A stretch of 49,863 nt of DNA from a virus: positions 1 to 49,863 of the IMG/VR virus record IMGVR_UViG_3300047558_000027. One strand, written 5' to 3'. Below the pieces are notes generated by a model that ran no database searches, was not told the origin of the DNA, and saw only the letters and a list, made by a program, of their open reading frames with translations. Each line of letters opens with the position of its first letter. The first letter of the stretch is position 1. A program made the translations under genes and the position numbers. Of this stretch, positions 1-25,849 are shown one piece after another.

Positions 1-264
1 ATCACGTGCTAGGTTCTTAGCCATGTTTTCTTTAATGGCATCAGCGTAATCCACGTTCTGCTCTTTCAATTTAATAAGTTCTTGCTCTTGAACACGATGC
101 TCAACAACAAACTCATTCAAAGCAAACTGATCAAGAATATCTTGAGTCTTTACTTTTTGTGCTTGACTAATACCAGCAGTATTAGAAGCAGTAGATACCG
201 TGATGGTGCTATTGCTACCATCAAAACTTAAATTTCCTACTGGGGCTTGTGTAGCGACAGACAT
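1..264 (-). CDS. Hypothetical protein, partial (C-terminus beyond window)
   Basis: I read this reading frame directly from the sequence: it starts with ATG at 264 and is still open at base 1, giving 88 residues. Its ATG overlaps the TAA of the upstream gene by one base (TAATG), so translation is probably coupled. The visible part has a Ser/Thr/Asn-rich N-terminal stretch (about residues 10-35), then a charged, Gln/Glu/Lys-rich segment that is probably helical (about 40-88). I do not recognise a family. A short Thr/Ser-rich head before a coil could fit a virion or scaffold-like protein, but that is a guess. Confidence 0.7.
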   Translation of the reverse strand, partial: MSVATQAPVGNLSFDGSNSTITVSTASNTAGISQAQKVKTQDILDQFALNEFVVEHRVQEQELIKLKEQNVDYADAIKENMAKNLARD

Positions 265-1280
265 TAAAAATTCTCCAATCCAATTAAAACAGGTTCTTCA
301 TCATCAAACATCCATTCAAGGTTTTCAAGTTTACCAGTATTAACAAAACTTGAAAACCTTTCTTTATCAATACCACGCTTATGGTCTAATCTTAAATCAA
401 TCGTTTCATTTCGAGCATCCCAAAGAACATCCCAATCAATACCATACCATCCATCATTCTCTGCTTTAATAATTTCTTCTGCCTGACGATCAAGGTAGTA
501 TCCAAGATAACGACCATGATGTTCACGAAAGATTTTCTTGAAAGAACATAGGCAGGTTTCCATAGTGAAGTAGTCAATTTGATTTGCTAGTTCTGGAAAC
601 CTTTCTCTCATTTCAATGATAATCCCCCAGCTAACATTCTCAAGGTATGCATATTCCACTCGATTAAGTTTTCGATCATAATCGTCATCCTTGCCAATGG
701 CCAAAAGTAATCCATTACGATGAGAACGGGAACCATCATAATCATCAAGCATGAGAGAACTAGGCTCAATCCTAATCCCAGCAGTGTGACGAAGATGCTG
801 CATATAGAACCAAGTAGAATACCTACCAAACTTGTGAAGGTTTCCTTTGAGTACGCTCCACAGAGCATCAAAGTTTTGTTTCTCATTGTCTCCGTAGTAC
901 GATTCGAGTGTTTCACGCTGAGTCCTGTTTCCAATAAATTTCTGATACGATTCAAACATTGTAGGTAAATGTCCTTTGTTCCACTTTGTATCAGTTTGAT
1001 ATCTCAATCTCTTATAGTTCGTAGCATTCCATTGAGTCATTCGATCAACAGTCGCCAATTCATAATCAGGAAACTCATTCATCAATACCCAAGCAGTAGG
1101 CAATTGATATGTGTTACCATACAACCAACAAAGCCAAAGACGCTGTTCGTCATTATGCTCATATCGTTTGTTCAGATAGTTTGTAGCCCATACAGCTGGG
1201 TCACAATCATCATATTTTAACGACCAAGCATACCATCGGATAAATGCCTCTCGTCGGTTTTGTTCTAATCTGTAATCCAT
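264..1280 (-). CDS. Putative amino-acid:DNA transferase / aGPT-pyrophosphorylase-like protein
   Basis: This 338-residue protein is rich in Trp and Tyr. Near its N-terminus it has the blocks FIRWYAWS, DCDPAVW, QRLWLCWLYGNTYQLP and NEFPD (residues about 13-75), followed by KWNKGHLP near 100. I associate this pattern with the phage amino-acid:DNA transferase / alpha-glutamyl-putrescinyl-thymine pyrophosphorylase (aGPT-Pplase) group, which was predicted to attach amino acids or amines to activated hydroxymethyl-pyrimidines in DNA. The assignment is from memory of the motif pattern, so treat it as probable rather than firm. The context supports it: it is the last complete gene of a run with a TET/JBP dioxygenase, amidoligase and amidotransferase. 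It has its own promoter at 1286-1314. Confidence 0.5.
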   Translation of the reverse strand: MDYRLEQNRREAFIRWYAWSLKYDDCDPAVWATNYLNKRYEHNDEQRLWLCWLYGNTYQLPTAWVLMNEFPDYELATVDRMTQWNATNYKRLRYQTDTKWNKGHLPTMFESYQKFIGNRTQRETLESYYGDNEKQNFDALWSVLKGNLHKFGRYSTWFYMQHLRHTAGIRIEPSSLMLDDYDGSRSHRNGLLLAIGKDDDYDRKLNRVEYAYLENVSWGIIIEMRERFPELANQIDYFTMETCLCSFKKIFREHHGRYLGYYLDRQAEEIIKAENDGWYGIDWDVLWDARNETIDLRLDHKRGIDKERFSSFVNTGKLENLEWMFDDEEPVLIGLENF

Positions 1281-1285
1281 ACTTT

Positions 1286-1314
1286 ATTATACTATAAATC
1301 GGAATGAAAGTAAA
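1286..1314 (-). promoter_or_regulatory. Sigma70-like promoter (TTTACT-17-TATAAT)
   Basis: On the minus strand there is a -35 TTTACT (1309-1314), a 17-bp spacer and a -10 TATAAT (1286-1291). It lies in the 46-bp gap between the GNAT gene and the putative DNA transferase, so it would drive the latter. The same architecture recurs at many other gaps in the window. Confidence 0.75.
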
Positions 1315-1326
1315 GCGATTTTTGAC

Positions 1327-1878
1327 TCAAAAACCCTCTAAATTGACCCCTATTTGGCTGTTTGCAAGGTCGTAGAGGGTCGTACAGCCCCCCTTACCCT
1401 TTCGGTTGACCGCTTTGTTGATAGTCGTGTCGGAGTAGTCGTAGTCGCCCTCTAAGAAGGTATCTCCCCCTATACGGAAGATAGATAGCTGGCAACCACT
1501 CTTTTGAGCACCCCAGAAGCGGAATCCTAGACGCTCGTAGAAGCCCACGGCAGACTTCTCAGAGGATACCCTGAAGTAAGTTGCCCCATTGGCTCTCGCT
1601 CGTTTTAGCGAGTCCTCGCAGAGTAATCGAGCCGAACCTTTACCCCTATGTTTTGCAAAGGTATGTAGCAACTGTAGATTGGCTACATGTGGTTTAGTCT
1701 TCGAGATTGTAGTAATGATTGCAGCAGTTAATTCGTTACCATCGAATGCGCCAATACAAGAATCCCATTGCTCTTGCATGTCTGCTTTAGCGACGAACGT
1801 CTTTGCGAAGTTATCTTCCTTGGCTTCAGATATTGCGGCAATGAATTCAGTTCGTGTACAGTTACGCAACTTCAACAT
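1327..1878 (-). CDS. GNAT-family N-acetyltransferase
   Basis: A 183-residue protein with the GNAT fold signature. Residues about 74-86 hold the acetyl-CoA loop (HTFAKHRGKGSARLL, the R-x-x-G-x-G/A pyrophosphate-binding motif A). A later GFYERLGFRFWG block (about 110-121) is the usual motif B region. The C-terminal 50 residues extend beyond the typical domain and are Lys/Gly/Asp rich. Its start overlaps the end of the amidoligase gene by 17 bases. GNATs transfer acyl groups to amines, and the substrate here is unknown. Next to an amidoligase, amidotransferase and DNA-modification candidates, an acylation step on a modified base or peptide is conceivable, but this is inference. Confidence 0.85.
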   Translation of the reverse strand: MLKLRNCTRTEFIAAISEAKEDNFAKTFVAKADMQEQWDSCIGAFDGNELTAAIITTISKTKPHVANLQLLHTFAKHRGKGSARLLCEDSLKRARANGATYFRVSSEKSAVGFYERLGFRFWGAQKSGCQLSIFRIGGDTFLEGDYDYSDTTINKAVNRKGKGGCTTLYDLANSQIGVNLEGF

Positions 1879-2737
1879 AGGTTCTTACTTTTTCGCCACG
1901 ATCTTCTGGATGTTTAGTTTTCTCCCAACCAATAAACTGAGCCAAGTCCCACTGCATTGGAGGAAATTTATAGTTGTTTGTTGATATAAGTTCAACTACA
2001 CTTGGTCCATCATTTAATGCTGCGTCAAGAAAGTCTTGAACAAAACGGAAACATGATTCGAGTTCAGTTCGATCTAATGTTCCACGGAACAGTCTAAACT
2101 CTACAGTATCAATATGCTTTAAAGCATACATGTTAATAGCGAAACGGAATGGGCGACCCATTGATACGCCATCTTTACCAGCAGCATGCATCTTGATGAA
2201 TGAATCAAAGTCTGTTGCTAGGTTGATGATGTTATCTGACATGTAGTCAGGCATTGGGCGACCACCATCAAACTTCAAATACATCTTTGCGCCTTTGGCA
2301 CCTTTCATTTGATTGTGCTCAAAGAAACCATAAACATGCTCAATAGCAGCAGCTTGATTCTCTTTGATGTATTTTGTTAGACGCTTGAGCGCATCAATAT
2401 CATTACGTAGATTAGGGACACGACAATGTATATGAGTGTGAGCAGTAACGCCAACAGTAGGTGGAGTTCCGTTATCTGAAAAGATTTTCTCAAGTTCAAA
2501 ATATCTATCAACTTGTTCTTGCCATGTTCTAGTCGGTTTAGTGTTAATCTCCCCACCGACTGGAGGAGTTTCACCAAGTGGGTCAGCGCAGACATATTTG
2601 TAAGGGTCTCTTAGGTTAATAATATCTCGTTCTGAATACTCCCAAGAACCGAGTTCTTCTGGAATTAAAAAAGGGCGAGGCACATCACCCCACTCTATTT
2701 CCATACCGTATGTAAATTTATCAGCTGGATAATTCAT
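1862..2737 (-). CDS. Putative amidoligase (COOH-NH2 ligase)
   Basis: This 291-residue protein carries the landmarks of the glutamine-synthetase-like amidoligase family (Amidoligase_2). It has G-M-E-I-E at residues 11-15 (metal and nucleotide binding), GGEINTKPT at 61-69, H-T-H-I-H at 100-104 and EFRLFRGTLD at 213-222. Members join a carboxylate to an amine with ATP. It overlaps the upstream class II glutamine amidotransferase by 17 bases; this pairing is a known theme in which the amidotransferase is predicted to supply ammonia or act on the same metabolite. Lying within a cluster containing a TET/JBP dioxygenase, it may amidate an oxidised base, an amino-acid adduct or a peptide. The family call is solid; the substrate is unknown. 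Confidence 0.8.
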   Translation of the reverse strand: MNYPADKFTYGMEIEWGDVPRPFLIPEELGSWEYSERDIINLRDPYKYVCADPLGETPPVGGEINTKPTRTWQEQVDRYFELEKIFSDNGTPPTVGVTAHTHIHCRVPNLRNDIDALKRLTKYIKENQAAAIEHVYGFFEHNQMKGAKGAKMYLKFDGGRPMPDYMSDNIINLATDFDSFIKMHAAGKDGVSMGRPFRFAINMYALKHIDTVEFRLFRGTLDRTELESCFRFVQDFLDAALNDGPSVVELISTNNYKFPPMQWDLAQFIGWEKTKHPEDRGEKVRTYVEVA

Positions 2738-3419
2738 AATCTACTTTCTGTAAATCAGGTTTCTTTGTTTTGACAAGGTCAACATTCATTGTCATATTTG
2801 AATCGAATGTCAAGTAAGTGTTCATTGGAACTTCAACAGCTGGCATCTTAATACCTGCTCGTCTAGGAATATCCGCAGTAGAAGTAATTATAACTCCATT
2901 CACCAAAGAAGTCAAATATAATGGACGCTTACCATTTCTGAAAACAAGAAGGTGTTTATCTTTAAGGGATAACTCACAAACTGCCATAGATGCGTCTGGG
3001 TACTCACCAAGAGCATTCGCAGAATGTAAAACTAATTCAGAATCATTCTTTGTTTCACAAGGATAATTAAATATCTTACCCCAGTTCTCTGGAAGTTCTT
3101 GAGTGATAACTCCATTGTGAACAATAGAATGTGTTGCGCTTGTCAACGGCTGGTTATACAGTAGATCGCTAGTGCTATATCTACAATGACCAATGAGATA
3201 AAGAATGCCGTCATCGTTTACCATCTCCTCTAAATTATCTAAATGAACAAATCTATCCGCAGGGACTGCTTCTTTAAATGTAACAATTGTATTACCTTTA
3301 ATATAAGATAACCCAGTTGCGTGCATGCCTCGAATCTTTGATTGAAGGAACACATTACGGATGTTTTCAAAATCTTTGGAAGTTGGATTTTGAATCAACG
3401 CACCTATAACAGAACACAT
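2721..3419 (-). CDS. Class II (Ntn) glutamine amidotransferase domain protein
   Basis: A 232-residue stand-alone glutaminase domain of the GATase II / Ntn-hydrolase type. Met1 is followed directly by Cys2, the expected nucleophile after Met removal. Other family motifs are RGMHATG (30-36), GHCRYST (77-83), HNGVI (101-105) and the DSE acid motif (126-128). These domains normally release ammonia from glutamine for a fused or partner synthase. No synthase domain is fused here, and the overlapping downstream gene is an amidoligase, so that is the likely partner. The start ATG at 3419 shares a base with the stop of the oxygenase gene upstream. Confidence 0.88.
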   Translation of the reverse strand: MCSVIGALIQNPTSKDFENIRNVFLQSKIRGMHATGLSYIKGNTIVTFKEAVPADRFVHLDNLEEMVNDDGILYLIGHCRYSTSDLLYNQPLTSATHSIVHNGVITQELPENWGKIFNYPCETKNDSELVLHSANALGEYPDASMAVCELSLKDKHLLVFRNGKRPLYLTSLVNGVIITSTADIPRRAGIKMPAVEVPMNTYLTFDSNMTMNVDLVKTKKPDLQKVDYELSS

Positions 3420-4015
3420 TATTGTAACTCCAATTTAGTCAAACCATTTTCATCACCAATAATCCCAGTAAAGAATGTATTAAATGCTAACGAAATTCTT
3501 TCTTCTACTCCAGAATTAATATCTACAGAATGTTCAAGTTGTGATGGGAACAACACAAGCATACCCTTTCTAATATTAACCTTATACTCTTTAGAGTTGA
3601 ACGGATTGTGCGAACCAATTTCAAAAGAAATGTCACTATCTTTTTTTCTATAAAATTTTATGCTTGGTGGGATTTCTGGGCAGATATAATATACGCCACT
3701 AACAATGCTGTTATCGTGACTATGTTTATGATGTGCTTGATTAGTAGCATTCCTATTTACCCACGATTGAGTGAACCTTAACCCCACTTTAGTTGACGGA
3801 CATAAAATGTTATCAATATAATTTTGTAGATGTGGTTTGATTCGTTCAGATAAATCTGGCAAAGAGTCAAGAACTTTGGTATCAAGACTATAAGAATTCC
3901 CAGAAACATTCATTGATGTTTCAAGAGAGTTTATAATTTGATATTCCTCTTGGCTCAAATTCCCAACCTCAGCAACATAGACTGGGGTTGGGAATAATGG
4001 CAGAATCTGAAACAT
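3419..4015 (-). CDS. 2OG-Fe(II) oxygenase family protein
   Basis: A 198-residue protein resembling the putative 2OG-Fe(II) oxygenase family common in aquatic T4-like phages. It opens with the typical LFPTPVY segment. It then has a His-rich iron-binding stretch followed by SGVYYI (residues about 95-111), a distal FPSQLEHSV block with His162, and Arg173 in ERISLAFN for 2-oxoglutarate. Such enzymes hydroxylate a protein, nucleic-acid base or small molecule. Position between the TET/JBP-like dioxygenase and the amidotransferase suggests a step in the same pathway, but phages carry this family in many contexts, so the substrate remains open. Confidence 0.8.
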   Translation of the reverse strand: MFQILPLFPTPVYVAEVGNLSQEEYQIINSLETSMNVSGNSYSLDTKVLDSLPDLSERIKPHLQNYIDNILCPSTKVGLRFTQSWVNRNATNQAHHKHSHDNSIVSGVYYICPEIPPSIKFYRKKDSDISFEIGSHNPFNSKEYKVNIRKGMLVLFPSQLEHSVDINSGVEERISLAFNTFFTGIIGDENGLTKLELQ

Positions 4016-5379
4016 CAGAAGAAACCTTCTAGTGATGAAGCATTGGCTTCTGGGTGATACTTATGAAGTTCATCCTTACCAAGTTTCTCTTCACAATAGT
4101 CATACCATTCTTTGCTAGTCCACATAGATTCAGAAACACCATTCCATAAAGGTTTCCATAGAGGATGTTCTTTGTTTAGTCTACGAGATTCAACAAAGTT
4201 GAAACGGCAATCTTCATATTCAAATGAACCCAACTCAAGCATCTTCTCACGGAAATAACATACCAATGAAACACGCTCGGCTTCTTCATCAAGAAGTTTA
4301 ATCTCAGTATTGCCGTGCATAACCTCGTGGTTATTAATTAAGAGCAAGTCACCTGGACGCACATTAACAGCAACACGATATTCTGGAGCAATCAAGTAAC
4401 CACCAGAGTAGTTACCATTGTTAGACAACACCAACAAGTTAGACAAGCCAGAATCTAAATCACCAGCATCAAAGTGTGCGGCAGTGCGGAATGTTTTGTT
4501 GACAGTGATAGTTGTGAACGGAGTTCCAGGAACCAAGAAACGTGGATCTAGTTTCTCTGCTGCTTTCATTTGATTAGCATAACGCCATGGCAATAGATCC
4601 TTGAAACCTTTGGCAAGAGTTTGAAGGAATGGGAATGCCATTTGGAACTTCTCAAAGTTGTCACGTGTATAAGAAGTAGCACGACCATATGGAATACGTG
4701 GGTAACGATCGAACCAGCCAGCGATACCAGAGTTAACAGCAGTGCCGTAAGTAGTGGTACTGATCATCTTCATAACTTCTTCAGTAGCCTTTGCTCGTTC
4801 TTCACGGCTCATAGGTTTAATTGAATCAACCCATGCTTCAAAGTCAAACTTACCACGGAAACGAGAGATAACCCATACATTGTTCTTACCACCGCCACCT
4901 GCCATCTTCTTGTCAGTTTCGGTAGGATACTTATTGCGAACTGTATCAATAACATCTTCTTCAATCAAAGCAGAGTTACGATTCTTGATCAAGGCAGTGA
5001 TCATCTCATCTTGATAGTTGGTAACCCACTCACGACCATCAGAGGTAGCAATGATACCATCTTTAATACCAGAAGCAAGTCCACGATTCTCTGTTCGAAT
5101 CGCTGCTTCACGCAGACCAGCATATGCTGCGTCTTGTTGTTCTTTGCTGAAGTAGTTCTTGCGGAACTTGAAAACAATTCTACGCTCATCAGAACCTGTG
5201 GCGCAATTTGCGCAATCTTTTGGAACATCACAATCAGCTTGGGTTGCTAGGTCGCAGTTCGGTGGTGCGTAAACATCACAATCTTCTTCCACAAGAATAT
5301 CATAATGAGATTCATCAACAAATTTGCCCAACAAATGTGAACAATCAATTTTCTTTTCGGCTACAATTACCTTTACCAT
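4015..5379 (-). CDS. TET/JBP-type 2OG-Fe(II) DNA dioxygenase (putative)
   Basis: A 454-residue protein with a double-stranded beta-helix core near the C-terminus. The iron motif is H-F-D (His302, Asp304). RPGDLLLINNHEVMHGNTE (341-359) supplies the distal His, most likely His355, and ERVSLVCYFR has Arg369 for 2-oxoglutarate. This arrangement matches the phage TET/JBP family, whose members oxidise the methyl of thymine or 5-methylcytosine in DNA. The first 60 residues hold six Cys (13, 34, 42, 50, 56, 59), the last two as C-A-N-C, possibly a metal site or disulfides in an N-terminal extension. No cytosine methyltransferase or thymidylate hydroxymethylase lies in the window, so whether T or 5mC is the substrate cannot be decided. 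The gene follows the gp41 helicase by ten bases. Confidence 0.72.
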   Translation of the reverse strand: MVKVIVAEKKIDCSHLLGKFVDESHYDILVEEDCDVYAPPNCDLATQADCDVPKDCANCATGSDERRIVFKFRKNYFSKEQQDAAYAGLREAAIRTENRGLASGIKDGIIATSDGREWVTNYQDEMITALIKNRNSALIEEDVIDTVRNKYPTETDKKMAGGGGKNNVWVISRFRGKFDFEAWVDSIKPMSREERAKATEEVMKMISTTTYGTAVNSGIAGWFDRYPRIPYGRATSYTRDNFEKFQMAFPFLQTLAKGFKDLLPWRYANQMKAAEKLDPRFLVPGTPFTTITVNKTFRTAAHFDAGDLDSGLSNLLVLSNNGNYSGGYLIAPEYRVAVNVRPGDLLLINNHEVMHGNTEIKLLDEEAERVSLVCYFREKMLELGSFEYEDCRFNFVESRRLNKEHPLWKPLWNGVSESMWTSKEWYDYCEEKLGKDELHKYHPEANASSLEGFF

Positions 5380-5388
5380 TTCTCTCTC

Positions 5389-6783
5389 CTAAAACTTAAA
5401 CCCACTGAAACCTTCTGCTCTTTGTCGCTTGCCAAATTCACTCTTGTCAAACATAGGCACATCGTCTTTATCTTGACCAGAGTCAGACAAACCTACCTGA
5501 GCGGATGCTTCAACATCATATAACTTCATCTTGGCTCTATCGATACCAACAACGAAACGCTTATAGAATCCTGGATCATTGTAACGATTCTTTAATTGTT
5601 TAACAATGATTTGATTCAATTGCTCAAGTTCTTCATTTGAAACTAACGCAAACATAAAGTCAGCAGTGGCTGGTAATCCAAACGATTCAGAAGTATCTTC
5701 CAAACCTGGATCGCTATTAGTGTATCCACTTCGAGTTGTTTGTGTGGCTGAAACAATTGGAACATTATATTCAACAGCCAAACCTCTTAACTCTTCAGCG
5801 ATACTCTTAATATATGTATAAGAGTTAATACTTCCACCTTGCTTCATACGCTGACTTGAACAAATGTTTAGATAATCAATGAAGATAATATCAGGAATAA
5901 ACTCACGCTTCAACTTCAACTCTTCAAGCAATGCTCTGAAGTGACCAGCATGTGCGCCAGCAGTTGGATATTCTTTGACGATTAGTTTGCCCTGAGTTTT
6001 CTTAGAAATCTTTTCAATACGATTGTCGAAGATATCTTTGTCGATAACCTTCAACTCATCCATGGTCAAGTTCAATAGGTTCGCATCGATACGCTCAGCG
6101 ATACGCTCTTCAGCCATTTCCATAGTAATGTAAAGAACATTCTTGCCTTGAACAAGAACTGATGCTCCCACATGACACATAAACAAAGACTTACCAACAC
6201 CAGTACCAGCCAATGCGATGTTTAGGGTTTTCTTCGAGAGTCCACCCTTTGTGATTTTATTGAACATGTCCAAGTCGAAAGGAATCTTCTCTTCAACACG
6301 ATGATAAAATTCATAGCGTGAATTAGCATCGTCAATATAGTCATGACCAACATGATTGTCAAATGATACGGCAAGAGCATCAGATAGAATAGAAGGGATA
6401 GCATCTTTTGTATGAACCTTATCTGCTCCATCAATAATCTTGATTGACTGGAGGATAGCATTATAAACTGCTTTGTCTTTACAGAACTTCTCAGTCTGTT
6501 CAAGCATCCACGATTCGTTTACTTCTTCATGAGTTAATGAATCAACGTAACCATTAATCTCCGCCAGTTCTTTATCATTAATGTCAGTTCGGTTGCCAAC
6601 CTCAATTGAAAGAATTTCTTTGGTCAAAGGTTTGTTATACTTTGTAAAGAAATCTAAAATGATTTTGGCAAGGATCGCTTCCTTTCTATCTGAGAAATAA
6701 TCCTTGCTGATAAAAGGAATTACCTTACGGCAATACTGCTCATCATATACAAGATTACTCAGAATCTTCGTTTCTATTCTCAT
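5389..6783 (-). CDS. 41: Replicative DNA helicase, T4 gp41-like
   Basis: A 464-residue DnaB-type helicase. The RecA-like core begins near residue 165, with Walker A AGTGVGKS at about 192-199, an ITMEMAEERIAERIDANLL block and an IIFIDYLN Walker B. The last residues are Phe/Gly rich (GFSGFKF), as in T4-group helicases that contact partner proteins. I chose the ATG at 6783; the reading frame could begin one codon earlier only at TTG. It overlaps the upstream gene by 29 bases. No separate gp61 primase is seen in the window. A sigma70-like promoter at 6972-7000 lies inside the preceding gene and could serve this one and the modification cluster downstream. Confidence 0.95.
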   Translation of the reverse strand: MRIETKILSNLVYDEQYCRKVIPFISKDYFSDRKEAILAKIILDFFTKYNKPLTKEILSIEVGNRTDINDKELAEINGYVDSLTHEEVNESWMLEQTEKFCKDKAVYNAILQSIKIIDGADKVHTKDAIPSILSDALAVSFDNHVGHDYIDDANSRYEFYHRVEEKIPFDLDMFNKITKGGLSKKTLNIALAGTGVGKSLFMCHVGASVLVQGKNVLYITMEMAEERIAERIDANLLNLTMDELKVIDKDIFDNRIEKISKKTQGKLIVKEYPTAGAHAGHFRALLEELKLKREFIPDIIFIDYLNICSSQRMKQGGSINSYTYIKSIAEELRGLAVEYNVPIVSATQTTRSGYTNSDPGLEDTSESFGLPATADFMFALVSNEELEQLNQIIVKQLKNRYNDPGFYKRFVVGIDRAKMKLYDVEASAQVGLSDSGQDKDDVPMFDKSEFGKRQRAEGFSGFKF

Positions 6784-7072
6784 CAATTCCGCCAGTGTAA
6801 GTAATATTGTTTTTCTGTAACTGGTCCATAATTATAAACTGAAGTAGATCCCCGATATATGTTTCAAATTCGGTTTGATCATACTCCATGTGATTCTCAT
6901 GAACTTCATACTGAAAGTTTAGTTTGCAAGTGTCACCTTGTTCATCAAAAGAAACTTTACCGTATGAGAATATTATACCTCGATACGGTCCAGAAGTCAA
7001 CTTTAAAGCATCGTGACCAGTGTTGCGATTTTCAACCACCACGAATGGTGGTTTAGCCAAATGCTCACTCAT
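6755..7072 (-). CDS. Conserved hypothetical protein between uvsX and helicase
   Basis: A 105-residue protein beginning with the ATG at 7072 (MSEHLAK), which overlaps the end of uvsX as ATGAGTGA. A longer frame is possible only from a TTG. It has a beta-rich middle (VVENRNTGHDALKL, GIIFSYGKVSFDE) and an acidic C-terminus. I do not recognise the family. Coupling to uvsX and gp41 suggests a replication or recombination accessory role, by position only. Confidence 0.75.
   Translation of the reverse strand: MSEHLAKPPFVVVENRNTGHDALKLTSGPYRGIIFSYGKVSFDEQGDTCKLNFQYEVHENHMEYDQTEFETYIGDLLQFIIMDQLQKNNITYTGGIDENRNEDSE
6972..7000 (-). promoter_or_regulatory. Internal sigma70-like promoter (TTGACT-17-TATAAT)
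   Basis: Minus strand -35 TTGACT (6995-7000), 17-bp spacer and -10 TATAAT (6972-6977), wholly inside the coding sequence of the small gene upstream of the helicase. It would transcribe gp41 and the hypermodification genes. Confidence 0.6.
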
Positions 7073-8138
7073 CTTCTGCAAACTCTAAAGCATCAAGAGC
7101 ATCATCAAGTTCGTCGCGCATCATCGCTTCACCCTGACCAATTGAATACTTGTTCTTTACAAATTCATGGAATGTTTTGTTTAGTAAGATAGGCATCCAA
7201 AACTCTTTGGTGTCTGTATCTTTGAGGCGATACTTCTTATCTTCTACAACCCCATCTTCATCAACTTTGGAATACCAACCATTGGATGGTTTAACAACAT
7301 GACCAGACTCCAAGGCAATATCCAATAGACCAGACCACTTAGAAAGACCACCATCAAAAGATACGCTGACAGGAATCTTAGACTTTTCTTTAACATATCG
7401 GCTCTTCTCTACGTTGATAATAAAGTTATAACCAACAATCTCAGTGCCCTCTTTCTCTTGCTGACGTCCAAGGATATAGACATTATCTGCTGAATACATT
7501 GCGCCAGTTCCACCGCCAACAATTGCTTTAGGATACAAACCAATTTCCATGTAGGTATGGTTAACAACAACCAAAGGAATATCCTTCAAGTTCAAGTGTG
7601 GGGTTACCATACGGAACAAGGACTTCATTTGTTTTGCTCGAGTCATGTCAGCTGCAGACTTACCTTCTAACGCATCCTCAACTTCTTTCTTAGAAGCAAG
7701 GTTACCGATTGAGTCAATAACAATAATCAAATGATCACCACGCTCAACATTTTGTAGCTGTTGCATGATGTCAAACTTCAATTGTTCTACATCGGTAAGG
7801 GGAGTGTGGACAACACGTGTTGTGTCGATTCCGAAAGTATCAAAATAAGACTGAGGAGTACCGAACTCAGAATCATAAAATAGTAAAGCAGCATCTGGAT
7901 ATTTGTCCAAGTAAGATTTTGCCATCAATAAACTGAAGGCAGTTTTAAAATGTTTCGATGGACCAGCCCACATAGTTAGACCTGGAGTTAATCCACCATC
8001 AAGGCGACCTGATAAGGCTACATTGATAATAGGAACAGAAGTAGGAATCATATCCTTCTTCTTAAAGAACTTTGATTCAGAAAGAATCGCAGAGTCTTTG
8101 ATAGTTGAGTTCTTTTTGATTTTGTCTAGGATTCCCAT
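7065..8138 (-). CDS. uvsX: UvsX RecA-like recombinase
   Basis: A 357-residue strand-exchange protein of the T4 UvsX branch of RecA. Walker A is GPSKHFKT (59-66), the slightly divergent form found in T4-like phages. LLFYDSEFGT and LIIVIDSIGNLASKKEVEDA form the catalytic Glu and Walker B regions, and VVVNHTYMEIG is the following RecA-core strand. The C-terminus is acidic (ALDALEFAEDE), as usual for UvsX. It catalyses homologous pairing during recombination-dependent replication, with UvsY (39453-39890) as loader. The gene starts one base after the thioredoxin stop. Confidence 0.95.
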   Translation of the reverse strand: MGILDKIKKNSTIKDSAILSESKFFKKKDMIPTSVPIINVALSGRLDGGLTPGLTMWAGPSKHFKTAFSLLMAKSYLDKYPDAALLFYDSEFGTPQSYFDTFGIDTTRVVHTPLTDVEQLKFDIMQQLQNVERGDHLIIVIDSIGNLASKKEVEDALEGKSAADMTRAKQMKSLFRMVTPHLNLKDIPLVVVNHTYMEIGLYPKAIVGGGTGAMYSADNVYILGRQQEKEGTEIVGYNFIINVEKSRYVKEKSKIPVSVSFDGGLSKWSGLLDIALESGHVVKPSNGWYSKVDEDGVVEDKKYRLKDTDTKEFWMPILLNKTFHEFVKNKYSIGQGEAMMRDELDDALDALEFAEDE

Positions 8139-8139
8139 A

Positions 8140-8391
8140 TTATACCTTTAGAAAGTCTAACAATTGTTCTTCATTCATCATACCAACTTTGCGTTTAATC
8201 TCTGCGCCATTTTCATCAATTAGAATCATAGTTGGAACAGAACGAACGCCATATTCAATCGAAGTCATCATCTCATTATCAATATCAAGTTCTTCAATTG
8301 GAACATTAATTTTATCTTTTGCTCCCTTGATAATTGTAGTCAATGCTTTGCATGGTCCACACCACTCTGCGTAAAATTTAAGTACTTTCAT
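8140..8391 (-). CDS. Thioredoxin
   Basis: An 83-residue minimal thioredoxin with the active site W-C-G-P-C-K at residues 9-14 and the cis-Pro segment SVPTMILID near 52-60. It lacks the first beta strand and helix of full-length thioredoxins, as phage thioredoxins often do. It would reduce disulfides, possibly as electron donor to a phage or host reductase; no ribonucleotide reductase is in the window. It is packed tightly between the oxygenase at 8401 and uvsX. Confidence 0.92.
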   Translation of the reverse strand: MKVLKFYAEWCGPCKALTTIIKGAKDKINVPIEELDIDNEMMTSIEYGVRSVPTMILIDENGAEIKRKVGMMNEEQLLDFLKV

Positions 8392-8400
8392 ATATTCTCC

Positions 8401-8949
8401 TTATGGGTTGTTCTTTGAATGCGGCACATCAAAGACAAATGTAACTCTAACACAGTCTCCGATATTTTTAGTGCCATGTGGTAATTTATTATTAAACCAA
8501 AGCAAGGTTCCAGGTTCAACTGTAACTGATTCATCACCTACCGTATATATGTATCTTCCTTGAATGGATAGATGGTAGCGATCTCTTGTTTGATAATAAG
8601 TTCCAATGTCGATATGTTTTCCAACCTCGCCACCGACTGGCAATGAAAGGAAACCACAACGACTAAACTTCTTGAAGTTTCTTTTTAGGAAACCAATAAT
8701 CTCTGTGTGATGTTTTGCTGCTGGTGTTGGGATACAAATCTCAGTATCGCCAACATATTGGTCGAGTGATTCAACACCACCCATAACCAACTGAAGGACA
8801 CCTGCATCAACTTGAGGGAAACCATAATCTAATAATGTTTCAACTCCCTCAATCTTGGTTTGACCACCCCAATCTTCAGGATGGTCTTTTAACTGTTTCA
8901 ATATCTTACTGACATTGATTCCAGTTTTAATAATACGAATGTTAGCCAA
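8401..8949 (-). CDS. Aspartyl/asparaginyl beta-hydroxylase-like 2OG-Fe(II) oxygenase
   Basis: A 182-residue protein with the Asp/Asn beta-hydroxylase core: LPVGGEVGKHID with the H-x-D iron pair at His112 and Asp114, RDRYHLSIQG (122-131) for 2-oxoglutarate, then TLLWFNNKLPHGT with His158 and Arg168. The likely start is TTG at 8949, with a GAGGA Shine-Dalgarno five bases upstream; no suitable ATG exists before the core. The start overlaps the end of the DNA polymerase gene. Relatives hydroxylate Asp, Asn or Arg side chains in proteins; the target is unknown. Confidence 0.82.
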   Translation of the reverse strand: MANIRIIKTGINVSKILKQLKDHPEDWGGQTKIEGVETLLDYGFPQVDAGVLQLVMGGVESLDQYVGDTEICIPTPAAKHHTEIIGFLKRNFKKFSRCGFLSLPVGGEVGKHIDIGTYYQTRDRYHLSIQGRYIYTVGDESVTVEPGTLLWFNNKLPHGTKNIGDCVRVTFVFDVPHSKNNP

Positions 8950-11428
8950 AGAAATCCTCTAATGAACTTTGTTCTGATGTATTCCAACCAAGTGGCTCAA
9001 TAACAATTTGCAAGGCATCTAAGAATACCTTCTCGAATTGTTTATCATAATCTATAAACTTATGCAAGTCAAATTCTTTTGGAAGTTCTGTTGTGAACGC
9101 AATCACATCCTCTTGGAAAGGATTAGGTTTACGAACATAGACAAACTTAATCTTATCACCATCACGGATAGGCTGATACTTCTTATCAAGACCCATACGC
9201 TTTGTGTAATGATTAAACAATAACGCACCACGAACATGAATCGGAGTACCCTTTGCATAGATTGGTGAACCAGCATACTGCTTCATACCATTTACACCAC
9301 GTGGGAATGCGATATCTTGAACTGGAAGTTTGTCAAACTCTTTACGGAAATCCATAACATAATTATGTAGGACTTTCTGATCACCCTTAAGAATAACTTC
9401 AATAGAGTCACGTAACTTATCACGGATGACTGCTGGCGTAGATGACTTGACCATCTCAAGACCCATAACCTTAATCTTGGGTTTTGCGTATTGAACACCT
9501 TCAGAGTTATGCACATTCAGAACATAACGCTTCTTGGCAGTCCAGATACCTTTATCAGCCAGAACCTCTCGCTTCATCTGCATCTTCTGACTATATGCGT
9601 TCATGTAGTCAGCGAGTTCTTGATAACCTGAGTCAATGAAAGGTTGGAAGACATCTTCACAAACCTTATCCATAAACTTAATCTTCTGCTCGTCAGTTTT
9701 ACCTTCGCAGGTTTTCTCAACGAGAGTCTCAAGTGTAAGATAGATTGAGTCAGTATCAATCGCAACTACATAATCTTTACCCTCAGTCTTAAGAGTTTTG
9801 TTCATGAATGCGTTTAACTTGTTAGCCATCCAACGAATAGACAGTTGACCAGAAGTAGTAATACCCTCAGCCATACGGATATCGAAGTAACGGAAGTACT
9901 GGTTACCCATCGCACCATAAGCAGAGTTCAACGCAATCTTCATAGCCATCTGTAGGTTATTCAAACGAGAAATATCTTTCAATAGATGTTTCTTGGTTTT
10001 ATCTTTTTCATATTCCTGTTGAACACCAAGCATCTGTTTCTTAAACTTAGAACGATTCTTGTACATCTCTTCCATCAACTCGGGCATAAACCCTTTGAAC
10101 TCTTTTGTGTAAGTCCAGCCATTGGCAGTCAGAGCAAGATCTCGTTGCTTGACATATGAAGTATCAATCTCTTGATTCAACAACTTGTCAACAGTAACAC
10201 TAATCTTTTCAGAAGTCAAAGTCTCAGGCGAGATATTATACTGCATGATCAAGTGAGGATACAATGAGTTCAAGTCAAAGGAAGCCATCCATTTGTGCAT
10301 ACCAATCAGAGGGTCTTTAACATACGCACCTTCGAACTGAGCATCTTTACCTGAGTGGCTCTTTGCTGGAATAACAATACCCTTCTTACGCAGATGGTTA
10401 TAGATGATTGTGTCCCACATACGAACCTGCGAATAAACATCTTCGAAATTAATCTTAGCATTATAAGCCATGGTCAAATGCAGTTCAATCAAACGCATTT
10501 TGTCTTCAAGTTTGTCAACCAACTCTACGTCATGAATGTTATACTCAACGAATTGTTGCCAGTGGTTGGTATAGAAATCTTTGAATGACTCACCTGGATT
10601 CTCTTTCTTCTTATCGCCAAGTTCTTGTTCAGCGATATAATCCAAACGATAACTTTCCTGTTTAGAATATGTATATTTCTTATACAGTTCAAGATAATCT
10701 AGCTGAGCAATACCAACGATGTCGTAGTGAATCTCTTCATTACCTTTGATAAAGGTTTTACGCTCATTGACATAACCCCATGGGCTCATCTTATTAGATG
10801 TTCCATCGCCCATCTCACGCTCGATGCGTCGGATGAGATATGGCATATCGAAGAAGTCTGTATTCCAACCAGTGACTACGTCAGGATAACTCTTAGTCCA
10901 AAATTCTAGGAATTGAGATAGAAGTTCTTGTTCGTTTTTACAACCAACATAGATTACATCTTCACGACCATGAACGAATGACTTACTACCAAAGGTAATG
11001 ATTCGTTTTGTGTGAAGATCTTTAACTGTGATGAGAAGAACCTCTTCATTGGCAGTTTTAATATCAGGGAAACCATTCTCAGTTGAAGTCTCAATGTCAA
11101 CAGTGAATACTTTAATCTGATCCATATCCCAATTGATATCATGGGAATAGTTATCGCTGATGTACTGATAGGCGTAATTGGAATTCCCATAGACTGAGAA
11201 GCCAGTTACACCATCATATCGTTTGATGAAGTCACGAGTCTCCCTGATAGATCCAGGTTGGACTTCATCAACGAATGTTCCCTCCAGTGTCTTCCACTTG
11301 GAGGGTTTCTGAGAAGTTACATAGAGAGTGGGACTAAAATCTAGTTTGCGTTGATAGCGTTTACCATTCTCAACACCTCTGATGAATATCTTATCACCAA
11401 TAGGATGTACTGAGGTATAAAATTCCAT
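8942..11428 (-). CDS. 43: DNA polymerase, family B, T4 gp43-like
   Basis: An 828-residue replicative polymerase. The 3'-5' exonuclease motifs are present: DIE (Asp111, Glu113), GWNTDFFD (Asp191) and YNIHD (Asp300). The polymerase motifs are DLNSLYP (385-391, motif A), KIALNSAYG (497-505, motif B) and DTDS (558-561, motif C). The C-terminal SLEDFFG resembles the clamp-binding tail of T4-type polymerases. All catalytic residues are intact. At 828 residues it is slightly shorter than T4 gp43 (898). It works with the clamp, clamp loader and gp41 helicase encoded in this window. Confidence 0.97.
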   Translation of the reverse strand: MEFYTSVHPIGDKIFIRGVENGKRYQRKLDFSPTLYVTSQKPSKWKTLEGTFVDEVQPGSIRETRDFIKRYDGVTGFSVYGNSNYAYQYISDNYSHDINWDMDQIKVFTVDIETSTENGFPDIKTANEEVLLITVKDLHTKRIITFGSKSFVHGREDVIYVGCKNEQELLSQFLEFWTKSYPDVVTGWNTDFFDMPYLIRRIEREMGDGTSNKMSPWGYVNERKTFIKGNEEIHYDIVGIAQLDYLELYKKYTYSKQESYRLDYIAEQELGDKKKENPGESFKDFYTNHWQQFVEYNIHDVELVDKLEDKMRLIELHLTMAYNAKINFEDVYSQVRMWDTIIYNHLRKKGIVIPAKSHSGKDAQFEGAYVKDPLIGMHKWMASFDLNSLYPHLIMQYNISPETLTSEKISVTVDKLLNQEIDTSYVKQRDLALTANGWTYTKEFKGFMPELMEEMYKNRSKFKKQMLGVQQEYEKDKTKKHLLKDISRLNNLQMAMKIALNSAYGAMGNQYFRYFDIRMAEGITTSGQLSIRWMANKLNAFMNKTLKTEGKDYVVAIDTDSIYLTLETLVEKTCEGKTDEQKIKFMDKVCEDVFQPFIDSGYQELADYMNAYSQKMQMKREVLADKGIWTAKKRYVLNVHNSEGVQYAKPKIKVMGLEMVKSSTPAVIRDKLRDSIEVILKGDQKVLHNYVMDFRKEFDKLPVQDIAFPRGVNGMKQYAGSPIYAKGTPIHVRGALLFNHYTKRMGLDKKYQPIRDGDKIKFVYVRKPNPFQEDVIAFTTELPKEFDLHKFIDYDKQFEKVFLDALQIVIEPLGWNTSEQSSLEDFFG

Positions 11429-16208: not shown

Positions 16209-16337
16209 TTACATCTCTACATAATCTTCTTTACCAACACCACACTCTGGGCATTCAAAGGTATCTGGAAGTTCTTCCCATTTACCTTCAGTGACTTCAT
16301 CGTGGACGTGGCCACAAACAACGCATACGTAATCCAT
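16209..16337 (-). CDS. Rubredoxin (42 residues)
   Basis: This reading frame is short but clear. It begins MDYVCVVCGHVHDE with the first C-x-x-C-G pair and ends with LPDTFECPECGVGKEDY, the second C-x-x-C-G pair, giving the four cysteines that hold one iron. The EGKWEELPDTFECPECG core is typical rubredoxin. Its ATG overlaps the stop of the rubrerythrin gene (TAATG), so the two are translationally coupled. It should donate electrons to the diiron protein and effectively replaces the C-terminal rubredoxin domain of classical rubrerythrin. Confidence 0.93.
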   Translation of the reverse strand: MDYVCVVCGHVHDEVTEGKWEELPDTFECPECGVGKEDYVEM

Positions 16338-16786
16338 TATAAGTTCTCCAATGTTTGTTGATATGCTTGAGCATGACGCTTCTCTACTTTAGCGAGAGCA
16401 GCAAAACGCTTTTCTGCTTTAGCCAAAACTTGAGCAAATTGTTCAGCGTGTTCTTTAGATTCAGCAATCTGATCAGCAAATTCTGAACGAGCCAAAGGAT
16501 TCTGTTCCAACTCTGCATCAGTTTTAAACTTTGGATACATTGTAGTAAACTCATAAGTCTCACCTTCAATTGCTTTCTGTAGGCATTCCTTAGTGGATGG
16601 CTTACCGATTAGCAACTCAAGATGACCCCACGCATGTTTGATCTCTTGATCAGCAGTATGTTCGAAATGTTTTGCAACATCTTCGAAACCTTCTTCACGA
16701 GCGATCATAGCGAAATATCGATATTTGATATGAGCCATTGATTCGCCAGCCAATGCACTCTCAAGATTTTGTAATGTTACAGACAT
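16337..16786 (-). CDS. Rubrerythrin-type diiron protein
   Basis: A 149-residue ferritin-like four-helix protein. The first half has the rubrerythrin signature ALAGESMAHIKYRYFA (Glu15) and HTADQEIKHAWGH (Glu48, His51). The second half has EGETYEFTTMYP (Glu74/Glu76) and IAESKEHAEQF (Glu109, His113). The last motif is not a perfect E-x-x-H, so one ligand position is uncertain. Rubrerythrins reduce peroxide using rubredoxin electrons. The domain lacks the usual fused rubredoxin, which is encoded as a separate gene next door. A phage copy would plausibly protect the infected cell from peroxide. Confidence 0.88.
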   Translation of the reverse strand: MSVTLQNLESALAGESMAHIKYRYFAMIAREEGFEDVAKHFEHTADQEIKHAWGHLELLIGKPSTKECLQKAIEGETYEFTTMYPKFKTDAELEQNPLARSEFADQIAESKEHAEQFAQVLAKAEKRFAALAKVEKRHAQAYQQTLENL

Positions 16787-16879: not shown

Positions 16880-17040
16880 ACCATGCTCCCTCTTCGAAGG
16901 TACGCATAATACTCACGCTCCAATTGCTCCACATGAAGCGGAGTTTGTGGGTTGTGGGCTAAAATGAATTCCTCTAGTGTTGTAGTTCTATCACGCAATA
17001 CATTACCAATTAAGGATTTAAGTGCGGATAGAAATTTCAT
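16876..17040 (-). CDS. Small hypothetical protein
   Basis: A 54-residue protein (MKFLSALKSLIGNVLRDRTTTLEEFI, then HVEQLEREYYAYLRR). Start and stop both use four-base ATGA overlaps, with Hsp20 upstream and the 28-residue frame downstream. The pattern of a short amphipathic N-terminus followed by a charged helix recurs in small phage proteins of unknown function. Confidence 0.7.
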   Translation of the reverse strand: MKFLSALKSLIGNVLRDRTTTLEEFILAHNPQTPLHVEQLEREYYAYLRRGSMV

Positions 17041-17522
17041 AGGTCTTCTTCAGTTAGATACTGTTTACCTTTACCAGTCTTAACTGGAACTTTCTTTGCT
17101 TTCTTTTCTTCTGGCACCAATTGATCAAGAGCGATCTTTAGAACACCATTGAAAAGTTCAGCATCCTTAACTTCATACTGATCACCGATAGCCCACGCAC
17201 GAGTGAACGCACGATTAGAGATACCTTTGAATAAGAAGTTTTCTTCTGGTTCTTTGGATTCAGCGTTACCCTTAACGATCAACTTACCACCATCGATAGT
17301 GATGTCGATTTCGTTTTGAGCGAAGCCAGCTACAGCGATTTCGATCGTGTAAGTGTTTCCGTTCTTACGAACATTAAATGGAGGGTAGTTAGGGATATCT
17401 TTAGTCAAGTCGTCATGCAATTGCTGCATGCGTTTGAATTGGTCATCAAAGCCTACGAATACTTTATCGAAGTCCTTGAAAACATCTTGGCTAAAAAATG
17501 CTGGAATGAATGATTTTGTCAT
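17037..17522 (-). CDS. hsp20: Small heat shock protein, Hsp20 family
   Basis: A 161-residue alpha-crystallin-domain chaperone. The domain spans about residues 48-140 (YPPFNVRKNGNTYTIEIAVAGF, DITIDGGKLIVKG, ISNRAFTRAWAIGD, AELFNGVLKIAL). The N-terminal arm is Phe rich, and the tail is Lys rich without a clear I-x-I anchor. It prevents aggregation of unfolded proteins without ATP. Hsp20 genes are frequent in T4-like phages of aquatic bacteria. Here it heads an operon leading to rubrerythrin and rubredoxin, and its AGGAG ribosome site is strong. Confidence 0.93.
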   Translation of the reverse strand: MTKSFIPAFFSQDVFKDFDKVFVGFDDQFKRMQQLHDDLTKDIPNYPPFNVRKNGNTYTIEIAVAGFAQNEIDITIDGGKLIVKGNAESKEPEENFLFKGISNRAFTRAWAIGDQYEVKDAELFNGVLKIALDQLVPEEKKAKKVPVKTGKGKQYLTEEDL

Positions 17523-24647: not shown

Positions 24648-25805
24648 TTAAAATGGAACTTCGTCAGAAGGTGTTGCAGCGACTTGCTCGGGAGCAGGTG
24701 CTACCTCTGGCGCAGGGTTAGCAACCATCTCATACAATTTCAAGAACGCATCTTTAGTTGCAGAGTCAAAACGATTGCAGCAAAGTTCCACTGCTTTCTC
24801 ACGCTTCTTGAAGATAGCGTAAGCACGAACAATGTGGATCATACGACGAGTCGTAATAGTTTCATCCACACCACCATCGGCGAAAGTGCGACGAATTGAA
24901 TCAGCCCACTTGACCAATGTTTCAGCGAACTCTTTATCGGGGCAACCGAAAGAGTCCATAAGATTTTCAATAATCTTACCTTCAACCTTTGCAGAAGGAT
25001 AGTCCTGTTCAAAGGTTACGGCAAATCGTTCCAAGAATGCTTCGTTCAATACGTTGGTACCGATATAGCGACCATCGTCACTACCCTTACCCTTGGTGTT
25101 AGCAGTGGCAAAGATATTGAAACCTTCAGCGGGAACAATCATCTCATTCTTGAGTTTGAAGTAATAAGGTTTACCCTCGAGGATTGGTTGCAAGCAGAGC
25201 AAAGTGTTTGCTGAGCCAGCGTCAATCTCGTCAAGCAACAAAGTGCAACCAGTACGCATAGCGATAAGAACTGGACCCTCAACGATTTGGACGTTGCCGT
25301 CTTCGAGGGTTTTGGTACCGATGAGTTGTTCTTCATCAGTCATCATGTTCAAGTTAACACGAATCAATGGACGTTTGTGTTTGGCACAAATCTGTTCGAC
25401 CATAGTTGATTTACCGTTACCAGTTGGACCACTGATATAGGCTGGGTAGAAAATCTTTGACTTGATAATATTTTCAAGATCAGAGTAGTTGCCGAAAGGC
25501 ACGAAATTTGGATCCTTCTTTGGGATCAGCGACTGAACATCCGTATAATCCACTTGGAATGATTCCTCAACTTTAGGTTTCAATGCGGCATTACCAACAG
25601 TGGCATTACCTCGACCATCGATCGCATACAAGCCACGACCGACTTTGGTTGTCATCAACCACTTGGGTGATGTTTTGGTGCCAAGAGCACGCATAGTTTC
25701 TAGCAACTGAGCATTTTGAACGACTCCCTCGGTTTTAACATCGGGGAACAACTCAAAGAGTTTACCTTCAAATTCAGCTTGAAACGCACTGTCAATTTTA
25801 GCCAT
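24648..25805 (-). CDS. cobS: MoxR/CobS-like AAA+ ATPase
   Basis: A 385-residue AAA+ ATPase with Walker A GPTGNGKS (126-133) and Walker B LLLDEID (190-196), then IFATANTKGKG (sensor 1) and NEAFLERFAV. This matches the CobS-like ATPase found in many aquatic T4-like phages and the wider MoxR group. The N-terminal 60 residues form a separate module with SPKWLMTTKVGRGLY. I chose ATG 25805; the first in-frame ATG at 25847 lies almost on the promoter. MoxR-type ATPases work with VWA-domain proteins, and one is encoded directly upstream. Whether it acts on a metal chelatase is doubtful. Confidence 0.85.
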   Translation of the reverse strand: MAKIDSAFQAEFEGKLFELFPDVKTEGVVQNAQLLETMRALGTKTSPKWLMTTKVGRGLYAIDGRGNATVGNAALKPKVEESFQVDYTDVQSLIPKKDPNFVPFGNYSDLENIIKSKIFYPAYISGPTGNGKSTMVEQICAKHKRPLIRVNLNMMTDEEQLIGTKTLEDGNVQIVEGPVLIAMRTGCTLLLDEIDAGSANTLLCLQPILEGKPYYFKLKNEMIVPAEGFNIFATANTKGKGSDDGRYIGTNVLNEAFLERFAVTFEQDYPSAKVEGKIIENLMDSFGCPDKEFAETLVKWADSIRRTFADGGVDETITTRRMIHIVRAYAIFKKREKAVELCCNRFDSATKDAFLKLYEMVANPAPEVAPAPEQVAATPSDEVPF

Positions 25806-25849
25806 CATTTTCTCCATAACAAAACTACTTTCAATCAATTTATACAACT

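Follow-up and report, generated by a model that had tools for sequence, protein, structure and literature searches.

The described systems closest to the locus treated here, a cassette of putative DNA-modification genes in the viral record IMGVR_UViG_3300047558_000027, are the thymidine hypermodification pathways of the Pseudomonas phages M6 and PaMx11, the Salmonella phage ViI and the Delftia phage phiW-14 (W-14) (Lee et al. 2018, 2022). These phages combine a phrog_800 kinase and an amino acid:DNA transferase (ADDT, PF18724) with tailoring enzymes that include acetyltransferase and radical SAM types, and 5-hydroxymethyluracil (5hmU) is their common intermediate (PMC6449724). The 5-hydroxymethyldeoxyuridine (5hmdU) DNA kinase belongs to the established biochemistry of thymidine hypermodification (PMC6449724, PMC7653180), and phiW-14 is known to form a 5hmU intermediate that carries a pyrophosphate (PMC5977210). 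A TET-ADDT-kinase module has been predicted in Rhodococcus phage Tonitrus (PMC11955845); in Tonitrus and in Mycobacterium phage VioletZ, which lacks the thymidylate synthase (TS)-family hydroxymethylase, the genes form ParB-TET-ADDT-kinase modules with a 5hmU-DNA-kinase-like gene beside TET. In kinetoplastids, base J is made by JBP1/2 and a glucosyltransferase, and hydroxylation of thymine within DNA comes first. Modules of TET, ADDT and kinase were reportedly predicted in outline by Iyer et al. in 2013, and the phage 5-methylcytosine (5mC)-TET clusters of Burke et al. (2021) are said to carry TET/JBP at their head and to co-occur with C5-methyltransferases. The window, which is the whole stretch of 49,863 nucleotides analysed, carries part of a cassette with the same pairing of kinase family and ADDT as M6, PaMx11, ViI and phiW-14. 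Those phages obtain 5hmU through a TS-family deoxyuridine monophosphate (dUMP) hydroxymethylase (PF00303) and have no TET/JBP, whereas the cassette shows the reverse. It almost certainly serves base modification, and post-replicative thymidine hypermodification is its probable role.

A preliminary description of this DNA had proposed a base-hypermodification island of six genes on the minus strand between positions 264 and 5379. The six genes are intact, abut or overlap one another, lie directly downstream of a DnaB-type helicase and stand in the order described; they are given here with their two flanking genes last:

4015..5379, minus strand: TET/JBP dioxygenase, 454 amino acids (aa), the proposed thymine 5-methyl hydroxylase (PF12851 Tet_JBP, 8e-26)
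3419..4015, minus strand: OXY2, an accessory 2-oxoglutarate (2OG)-Fe(II) oxygenase, 198 aa (PF13759 2OG-FeII_Oxy_5, 2e-20)
2721..3419, minus strand: GAT2, a stand-alone class II glutamine amidotransferase (GATase II), 232 aa, the proposed ammonia donor (PF13522 GATase_6, 1e-8, over the cut-off)
1862..2737, minus strand: AMLIG, an Amidoligase_2-type carboxylate-amine ligase, 291 aa (PF12224, via homologues and predicted fold)
1327..1878, minus strand: GNAT acyltransferase, 183 aa (PF13673, 7e-12)
264..1280, minus strand: ADDT, 338 aa, of the phage ViI/Cr30/VioletZ group (PF18724, 2e-19, over the curated cut-off)
1..264, minus strand: ORF132, 5' part only, interrupted by the window end
5389..6786, minus strand: DnaB/gp41-type helicase, the upstream neighbour, outside the cassette (PF03796, 4e-20; phrog_19, 1e-127)

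The catalytic residues of these enzymes are intact. In TET, the HxD...H iron triad and the 2OG-binding arginine (H302, D304, H355 and R369) are at least 97% conserved across 105 sequences, and the profile can be aligned to TET2 structures across the HxD motif and the distal histidine. The catalytic Cys2 of GAT2, its N-terminal nucleophile, is conserved among its relatives together with the glutamine-site residues R80, N102, G103 and D126 (at least 97%). The window AMLIG scores E 0.014 and 15.7 bits against Amidoligase_2 (PF12224), under the Pfam cut-off of 22 bits; PF12224 is matched by 22 of 26 AMLIG homologues (best 2e-7), and the motifs GxExE, HxH and EFR are invariant in the family. The closest PDB folds to its AlphaFold model (predicted local distance difference test score 87) are YbdK and glutamine synthetase, at modest template modelling scores of 0.3–0.43. 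With this predicted glutamine-synthetase-like fold and these motifs, the protein appears to be a member of the Amidoligase_2 (COOH-NH2 ligase) family. The ADDT profile scores Cr30 at 130 bits, ViI at 108 and VioletZ at 88, and M6, PaMx11 and W-14 below 0; PF18724 is also above its curated cut-off in genomes G001, G003 and G004. Among PDB sequences, neither the ADDT nor the AMLIG profile found a relative. The ratio of nonsynonymous to synonymous substitution is about 0.1–0.18 for five of the cassette genes (all six except OXY2) and for a kinase gene that lies beyond the window.

This kinase changes both the limits of the cassette and the order of the pathway. Window positions 1–6118 correspond to positions 6118–1 of a 174,396-bp contig, L002, at 100% identity, and on L002 the ADDT is followed by ORF132 and then by a 207-aa P-loop kinase (L002:6225-6848). 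The cassette therefore extends past position 264, the window stops within its next gene, ORF132, and the six-gene extent first proposed was too short. The L002 kinase matches PF18751 (6e-8) and phrog_800 (1e-15), and phrog_800 likewise matches the kinases of M6, ViI, W-14, PaMx11 and VioletZ as well as the cassette kinases. Comparison of the cassette kinase family with known 5hmdU DNA kinases by hhalign gave 97.6% across the core, Walker A is invariant in the cassette kinases, and the kinase profile found generic P-loop matches in the PDB. By sequence, the cassette kinase is thus assigned to the 5hmdU DNA kinase family. The chain of reactions proposed earlier missed this enzyme, which would activate the hydroxymethyl group for ADDT, and had ADDT act at the end; the kinase very probably precedes ADDT, which places ADDT near the start of tailoring.

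The linkage of these genes was followed in viral contigs by scans seeded with TET, AMLIG, the kinase profile and the TET profile, together with a few annotated phage loci, giving 277 loci, of which 207 are non-redundant. The best 80 loci per scan were taken, so the set is biased toward close relatives; the contigs may be fragments, and absences were counted only where the flank leaves room. Within this set the linkage is obligate. TET, GAT2, GNAT, ADDT and kinase are all present wherever there is room in the 84 AMLIG contigs, without exception and with the order TET-GAT2-AMLIG-GNAT-ADDT-kinase retained, and GNAT adjoins the main AMLIG type in every case. Among 134 ADDT loci, none with sufficient flank is without kinase or TET. 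The AMLIG- and kinase-seeded scans are a fair test of co-occurrence because they were not started from TET, and no locus with sufficient sequence around it lacked TET. This contradicts the outcome that the preliminary description named as its refutation, homologues that never co-occur with TET/JBP, and the hypermodification island as such is supported. The cassette is intact without the surrounding T4-like helicase/UvsX genes in loci L162, L179 and L184; L261-L264 and L281 have it rearranged to GAT2-GNAT-ADDT-TET-kinase with membership unchanged. OXY2 is accessory and dispensable, present in 5 and absent from 53 of the AMLIG loci with room, and was rejected as the core step that the second oxygenase had been taken to perform. 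At the nucleotide level, cultured phages yielded almost no matches, and a scan of genome contigs gave a single distant match, in a metagenome-assembled genome, too little to assign a host.

The source of the first intermediate distinguishes these phages from those with the known pathways. PF00303 is present and TET absent in M6, ViI, W-14 and PaMx11, and a search of 14 TET contigs of 99–174 kb matched PF00303 in none of them. Nor did any of the 14 match PF00145 (C5-cytosine methyltransferase), a search that was positive for Methylophilales phage Melnitz and 10 control genomes. These contigs thus hold no rival source of the first intermediate, and no 5-methylpyrimidine other than thymine is evident on which TET could act; thymine is very likely the substrate of the cassette. 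Caulobacter phage Cr30 is an exception to this separation, in that a TS-family gene accompanies its TET, ADDT and kinase.

Tailoring follows a gene grammar that was counted in the 99 loci with TET, ADDT and kinase (complete cassettes). The window's class, with GAT2, AMLIG and GNAT, accounts for 55 of the 99; 28 have GAT2 and a different GNAT without AMLIG, and 8 (class 3) have GAT2, a divergent AMLIG and a low-molecular-weight (LMW) phosphatase without GNAT. Six have no GAT2, AMLIG, GNAT or LMW phosphatase, and two are mixed or incomplete. GAT2 is found in 93/99 and accompanies all tailoring, with or without AMLIG. The preliminary description had made GATase II the partner of the amidoligase; the two do occur together in the 55 cassettes of the window's class, but an obligate partnership was rejected on account of the 28 in which GATase II and GNAT stand without an amidoligase. 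A radical SAM enzyme is found in 7/99, and in L030:12009-13502, L068 and L069 a B12-binding-type radical SAM enzyme is inserted between ADDT and kinase. TET cassettes with two ADDT paralogues (ViI-like and W-14/M6-like) and no GATase II are exemplified by L057:1370-3351.

Among 50,697 cultured phage records, the only two relatives of the window AMLIG are in phage Simon (PQ683277, L326) and Vibrio phage 2.275.O (L325). The Simon module comprises an M6-group ADDT, a flavin adenine dinucleotide (FAD) oxidase, an AMLIG homologue (26% identical to the window AMLIG), an LMW phosphatase, a kinase, PF18723 and a TS-family enzyme. It thus shares with the window an AMLIG within a thymidine hypermodification module, and with the class-3 TET cassettes the LMW phosphatase, and differs in being of the dUMP-hydroxymethylase type, in its ADDT group and in having the FAD oxidase (42% identical to that of PaMx11 and absent from TET loci) in place of GATase II. 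This M6-type module is unannotated, and Simon also encodes a protein with the nucleotide-modification-associated domain Nmad5. In 2.275.O (5866-11074) the AMLIG homologue adjoins preQ0/deazaguanine genes and an Ntn-type 'nucleophile aminohydrolase', and an amidated deazaguanine is a possible product of that locus. PaMx11 itself reportedly transfers glycine and uses a flavoenzyme to reach 5-aminomethyl-dU, which is then acetylated by a GNAT. Since FAD oxidase and GATase II look exchangeable as sources of the amine, and GNAT and AMLIG as its caps, and since GAT2 is in every tailored cassette whether or not AMLIG is there, this grammar suggests that GATase II may be the amine source rather than an agent of carboxyl amidation.

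The pathway suggested for the window would begin with hydroxylation of thymine to 5hmU by TET/JBP within finished phage DNA. The kinase would then turn the hydroxymethyl group into a phosphate or pyrophosphate leaving group, which ADDT would displace with a nitrogen or amino-acid nucleophile; these three reactions are modelled on characterised relatives. The two that would follow are read from the gene grammar. GATase II would release ammonia from glutamine, so that ADDT and GATase II together would yield 5-aminomethyl-U, the most economical version, and the amine would be capped by the amidoligase, through an ATP-dependent amide bond to a carboxylate, by GNAT, or by both. This would leave a bulky thymine with an amide group, which would shield the DNA from host nucleases. 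An oxidised 5-carboxyl base, put forward earlier as the substrate of amidation, finds no support and was rejected, as the conserved kinase and ADDT act on the hydroxymethyl base; the hydroxymethyl base named beside it, and an amide bond formed before acylation, are possible. Taken as a whole, a JBP-like TET that makes 5hmU, ADDT and GATase II that make 5-aminomethyl-U, an amidoligase and/or GNAT that make an amide-linked, possibly amino-acyl, thymine, and sister phages that glycosylate 5hmU in a counterpart of base J form a plausible but tentative reading.

The sister phages concerned are represented by 24 non-redundant loci in which the gene after TET encodes a GT4-like glycosyltransferase (PF00534) and is never ADDT (for example a 449-aa enzyme at L014:8566-9912; others in L009, L022 and L288). 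The glycosyltransferase is confined to these sister cassettes and is not part of the window cassette, and GAT2, AMLIG and GNAT are all missing from the TET+glycosyltransferase cassettes. On the TET tree, a quick one like the others (FastTree), ADDT and glycosyltransferase have been switched at least 3–4 times. The glycosyltransferase-type genome G002 has no C5-methyltransferase and no match to phrog_800. Where L009 and L010 have the glycosyltransferase, a truncated kinase frame without P-loop persists between it and ORF132; this remnant is solid in L010, and that of L009 is weak by profile (E 0.3) and has a BLAST match of 2e-10. Decay of the kinase upon loss of ADDT is as expected if the kinase serves ADDT alone. 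The TET+glycosyltransferase loci are candidates for a phage base J-like modification.

Several points weigh against the pathway drawn for the window. The single-profile scores of its kinase to the M6, ViI, W-14 and PaMx11 kinases are weak (15–23 bits), and the helical partner PF18723, which accompanies the kinases of all four of these reference phages, is absent from 7/7 TET genomes tested and from Cr30, VioletZ and Melnitz, so that kinase function is assigned by family resemblance and context. The IMG/VR contigs are possibly incomplete, although 14/14 concur on the missing PF00303 and PF00145. Serine is reportedly what the ADDTs of the ViI group transfer, and this would make an amino acid a likelier nucleophile than ammonia; the phage TETs characterised so far are, reportedly in Burke et al. 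(2021), 5mC dioxygenases. The last point favours a pathway in which TET acts on 5mC and cytosine is the base that the cassette hypermodifies, as does Melnitz (L091, 4010-8090), where a C5-methyltransferase and TET are clustered with a kinase belonging to the same family and a protein that is possibly ParB-like. F31 was called ParB-like by eye, and Pfam gave no confirmation; Melnitz gave no ADDT match, and its cluster is possibly a cytosine version of the pathway. Such a product is nevertheless unlikely for the window cassette, given that the 14 TET contigs lack both enzymes and that the kinase and ADDT families are otherwise found in thymidine pathways.

The serine preference attributed to the ViI group also keeps alive a scheme in which ADDT first couples an amino acid, for instance serine, to the base. 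The carboxylate of this amino acid would then be amidated by GATase II and amidoligase and its alpha-amine acetylated by GNAT, so that thymine would end up with a capped amino-acyl group. The window ADDT clusters with those of ViI, Cr30 and VioletZ, apart from M6, PaMx11 and W-14; GATase II-amidoligase pairs exist elsewhere, as in Vibrio phage 1.262.O, and AMLIG and its GNAT are constant companions. The pair is not obligate, however, in view of the 28 cassettes with GATase II and no amidoligase and of Simon, which has an amidoligase without GATase II, and this outcome is possible but doubtful. It is much less probable that an operon with an unrelated task, for example peptidoglycan or surface modification, supplies GATase II, amidoligase and GNAT and is merely lodged among DNA-modification genes, even though phage amidoligase/GATase genes elsewhere have been interpreted as cell-wall modification modules (PMC11945000, PMC10580990). 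Their placement between TET and ADDT is constant in 84/84 contigs across differing backbones, they are all absent where a glycosyltransferase follows TET, and the contexts of both cultured-phage relatives of AMLIG, the Simon thymidine module and the deazaguanine genes of 2.275.O, concern DNA or nucleoside base modification and argue against a cell-wall role. A cell-wall operon was rejected on the position of the Simon AMLIG in an M6-type thymidine module and on the fixed TET-ADDT placement. That early metabolic genes are neighbours by chance, without joint function, is hardly credible: T4-like early regions are generally gene-dense and hold auxiliary genes, but scans seeded from different genes gave no exceptions, reordered cassettes retain their members and the whole set is swapped for a glycosyltransferase.

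Compared with the known systems, the proposed thymidine pathway of the window has a familiar core and apparently new tailoring. PF18723 belongs to M6, PaMx11, ViI and phiW-14 and is missing in the TET genomes tested, and GATase II is not known in those four phages. In Tonitrus and VioletZ, GATase II, amidoligase and GNAT do not adjoin the module, and the VioletZ ADDT is 29% identical to that of the window. The analogy with base J would lie in the initial hydroxylation of thymine in DNA and, in the sister phages, in the pairing of TET with a GT4-type glycosyltransferase, whereas the window cassette has kinase/ADDT chemistry instead of glucosylation. As in the 5mC-TET phage clusters, TET/JBP heads a tailoring cluster; the C5-methyltransferases that co-occur there are found in none of the 14 TET contigs. 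A tailoring set made up of GATase II, an amidoligase and a GNAT, a dUMP-hydroxymethylase/PF18723 route complementary to TET and repeated exchange with a glycosyltransferase were not found in the searchable literature, the coverage of which was incomplete, so that this counts as weak evidence of novelty.

The cassette occurs in a widespread phage group as a swappable unit and appears to join ammonia-releasing and glutamine-synthetase-like enzymes to DNA decoration, where they were not previously known. It points to an abundant phage group in which thymidine hypermodification would start on finished DNA instead of in the nucleotide pool, and would yield candidates for phage TET/JBP enzymes that are specific for thymine and related to the base J hydroxylases. 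It would also bring new ways of writing chemistry onto DNA and a modular grammar of one first step and interchangeable caps, testable enzyme by enzyme. The core steps can be tested now, since Caulobacter phage Cr30, Mycobacterium phage VioletZ and Rhodococcus phage Tonitrus are relatives in culture.

Some of these pathways have been hidden by annotation. TET/JBP is annotated as 'SNF2 DNA repair protein' in Cr30 (L082), DLP6 (L083) and S-CBWM1 (MG450654), and the pathway kinases as 'terminase small subunit' in M6 (L086), ViI (L201) and the RefSeq record of Cr30. In phage C48C1 (L084, 7938-11385), TET is followed by a 344-aa protein and a UDP-galactopyranose mutase lookalike, judged by eye, and a galactofuranosylated hydroxymethyl base is possible there. 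Elsewhere in the window, an Asp/Arg-hydroxylase-like 2OG enzyme (8401-8949) lies between DNA polymerase and UvsX and is kept in most sister loci, those with the glycosyltransferase included; Rubrerythrin (16337-16786), Hsp20 (17037-17522) and a CbbQ-type AAA ATPase (24648-25847) are also encoded.

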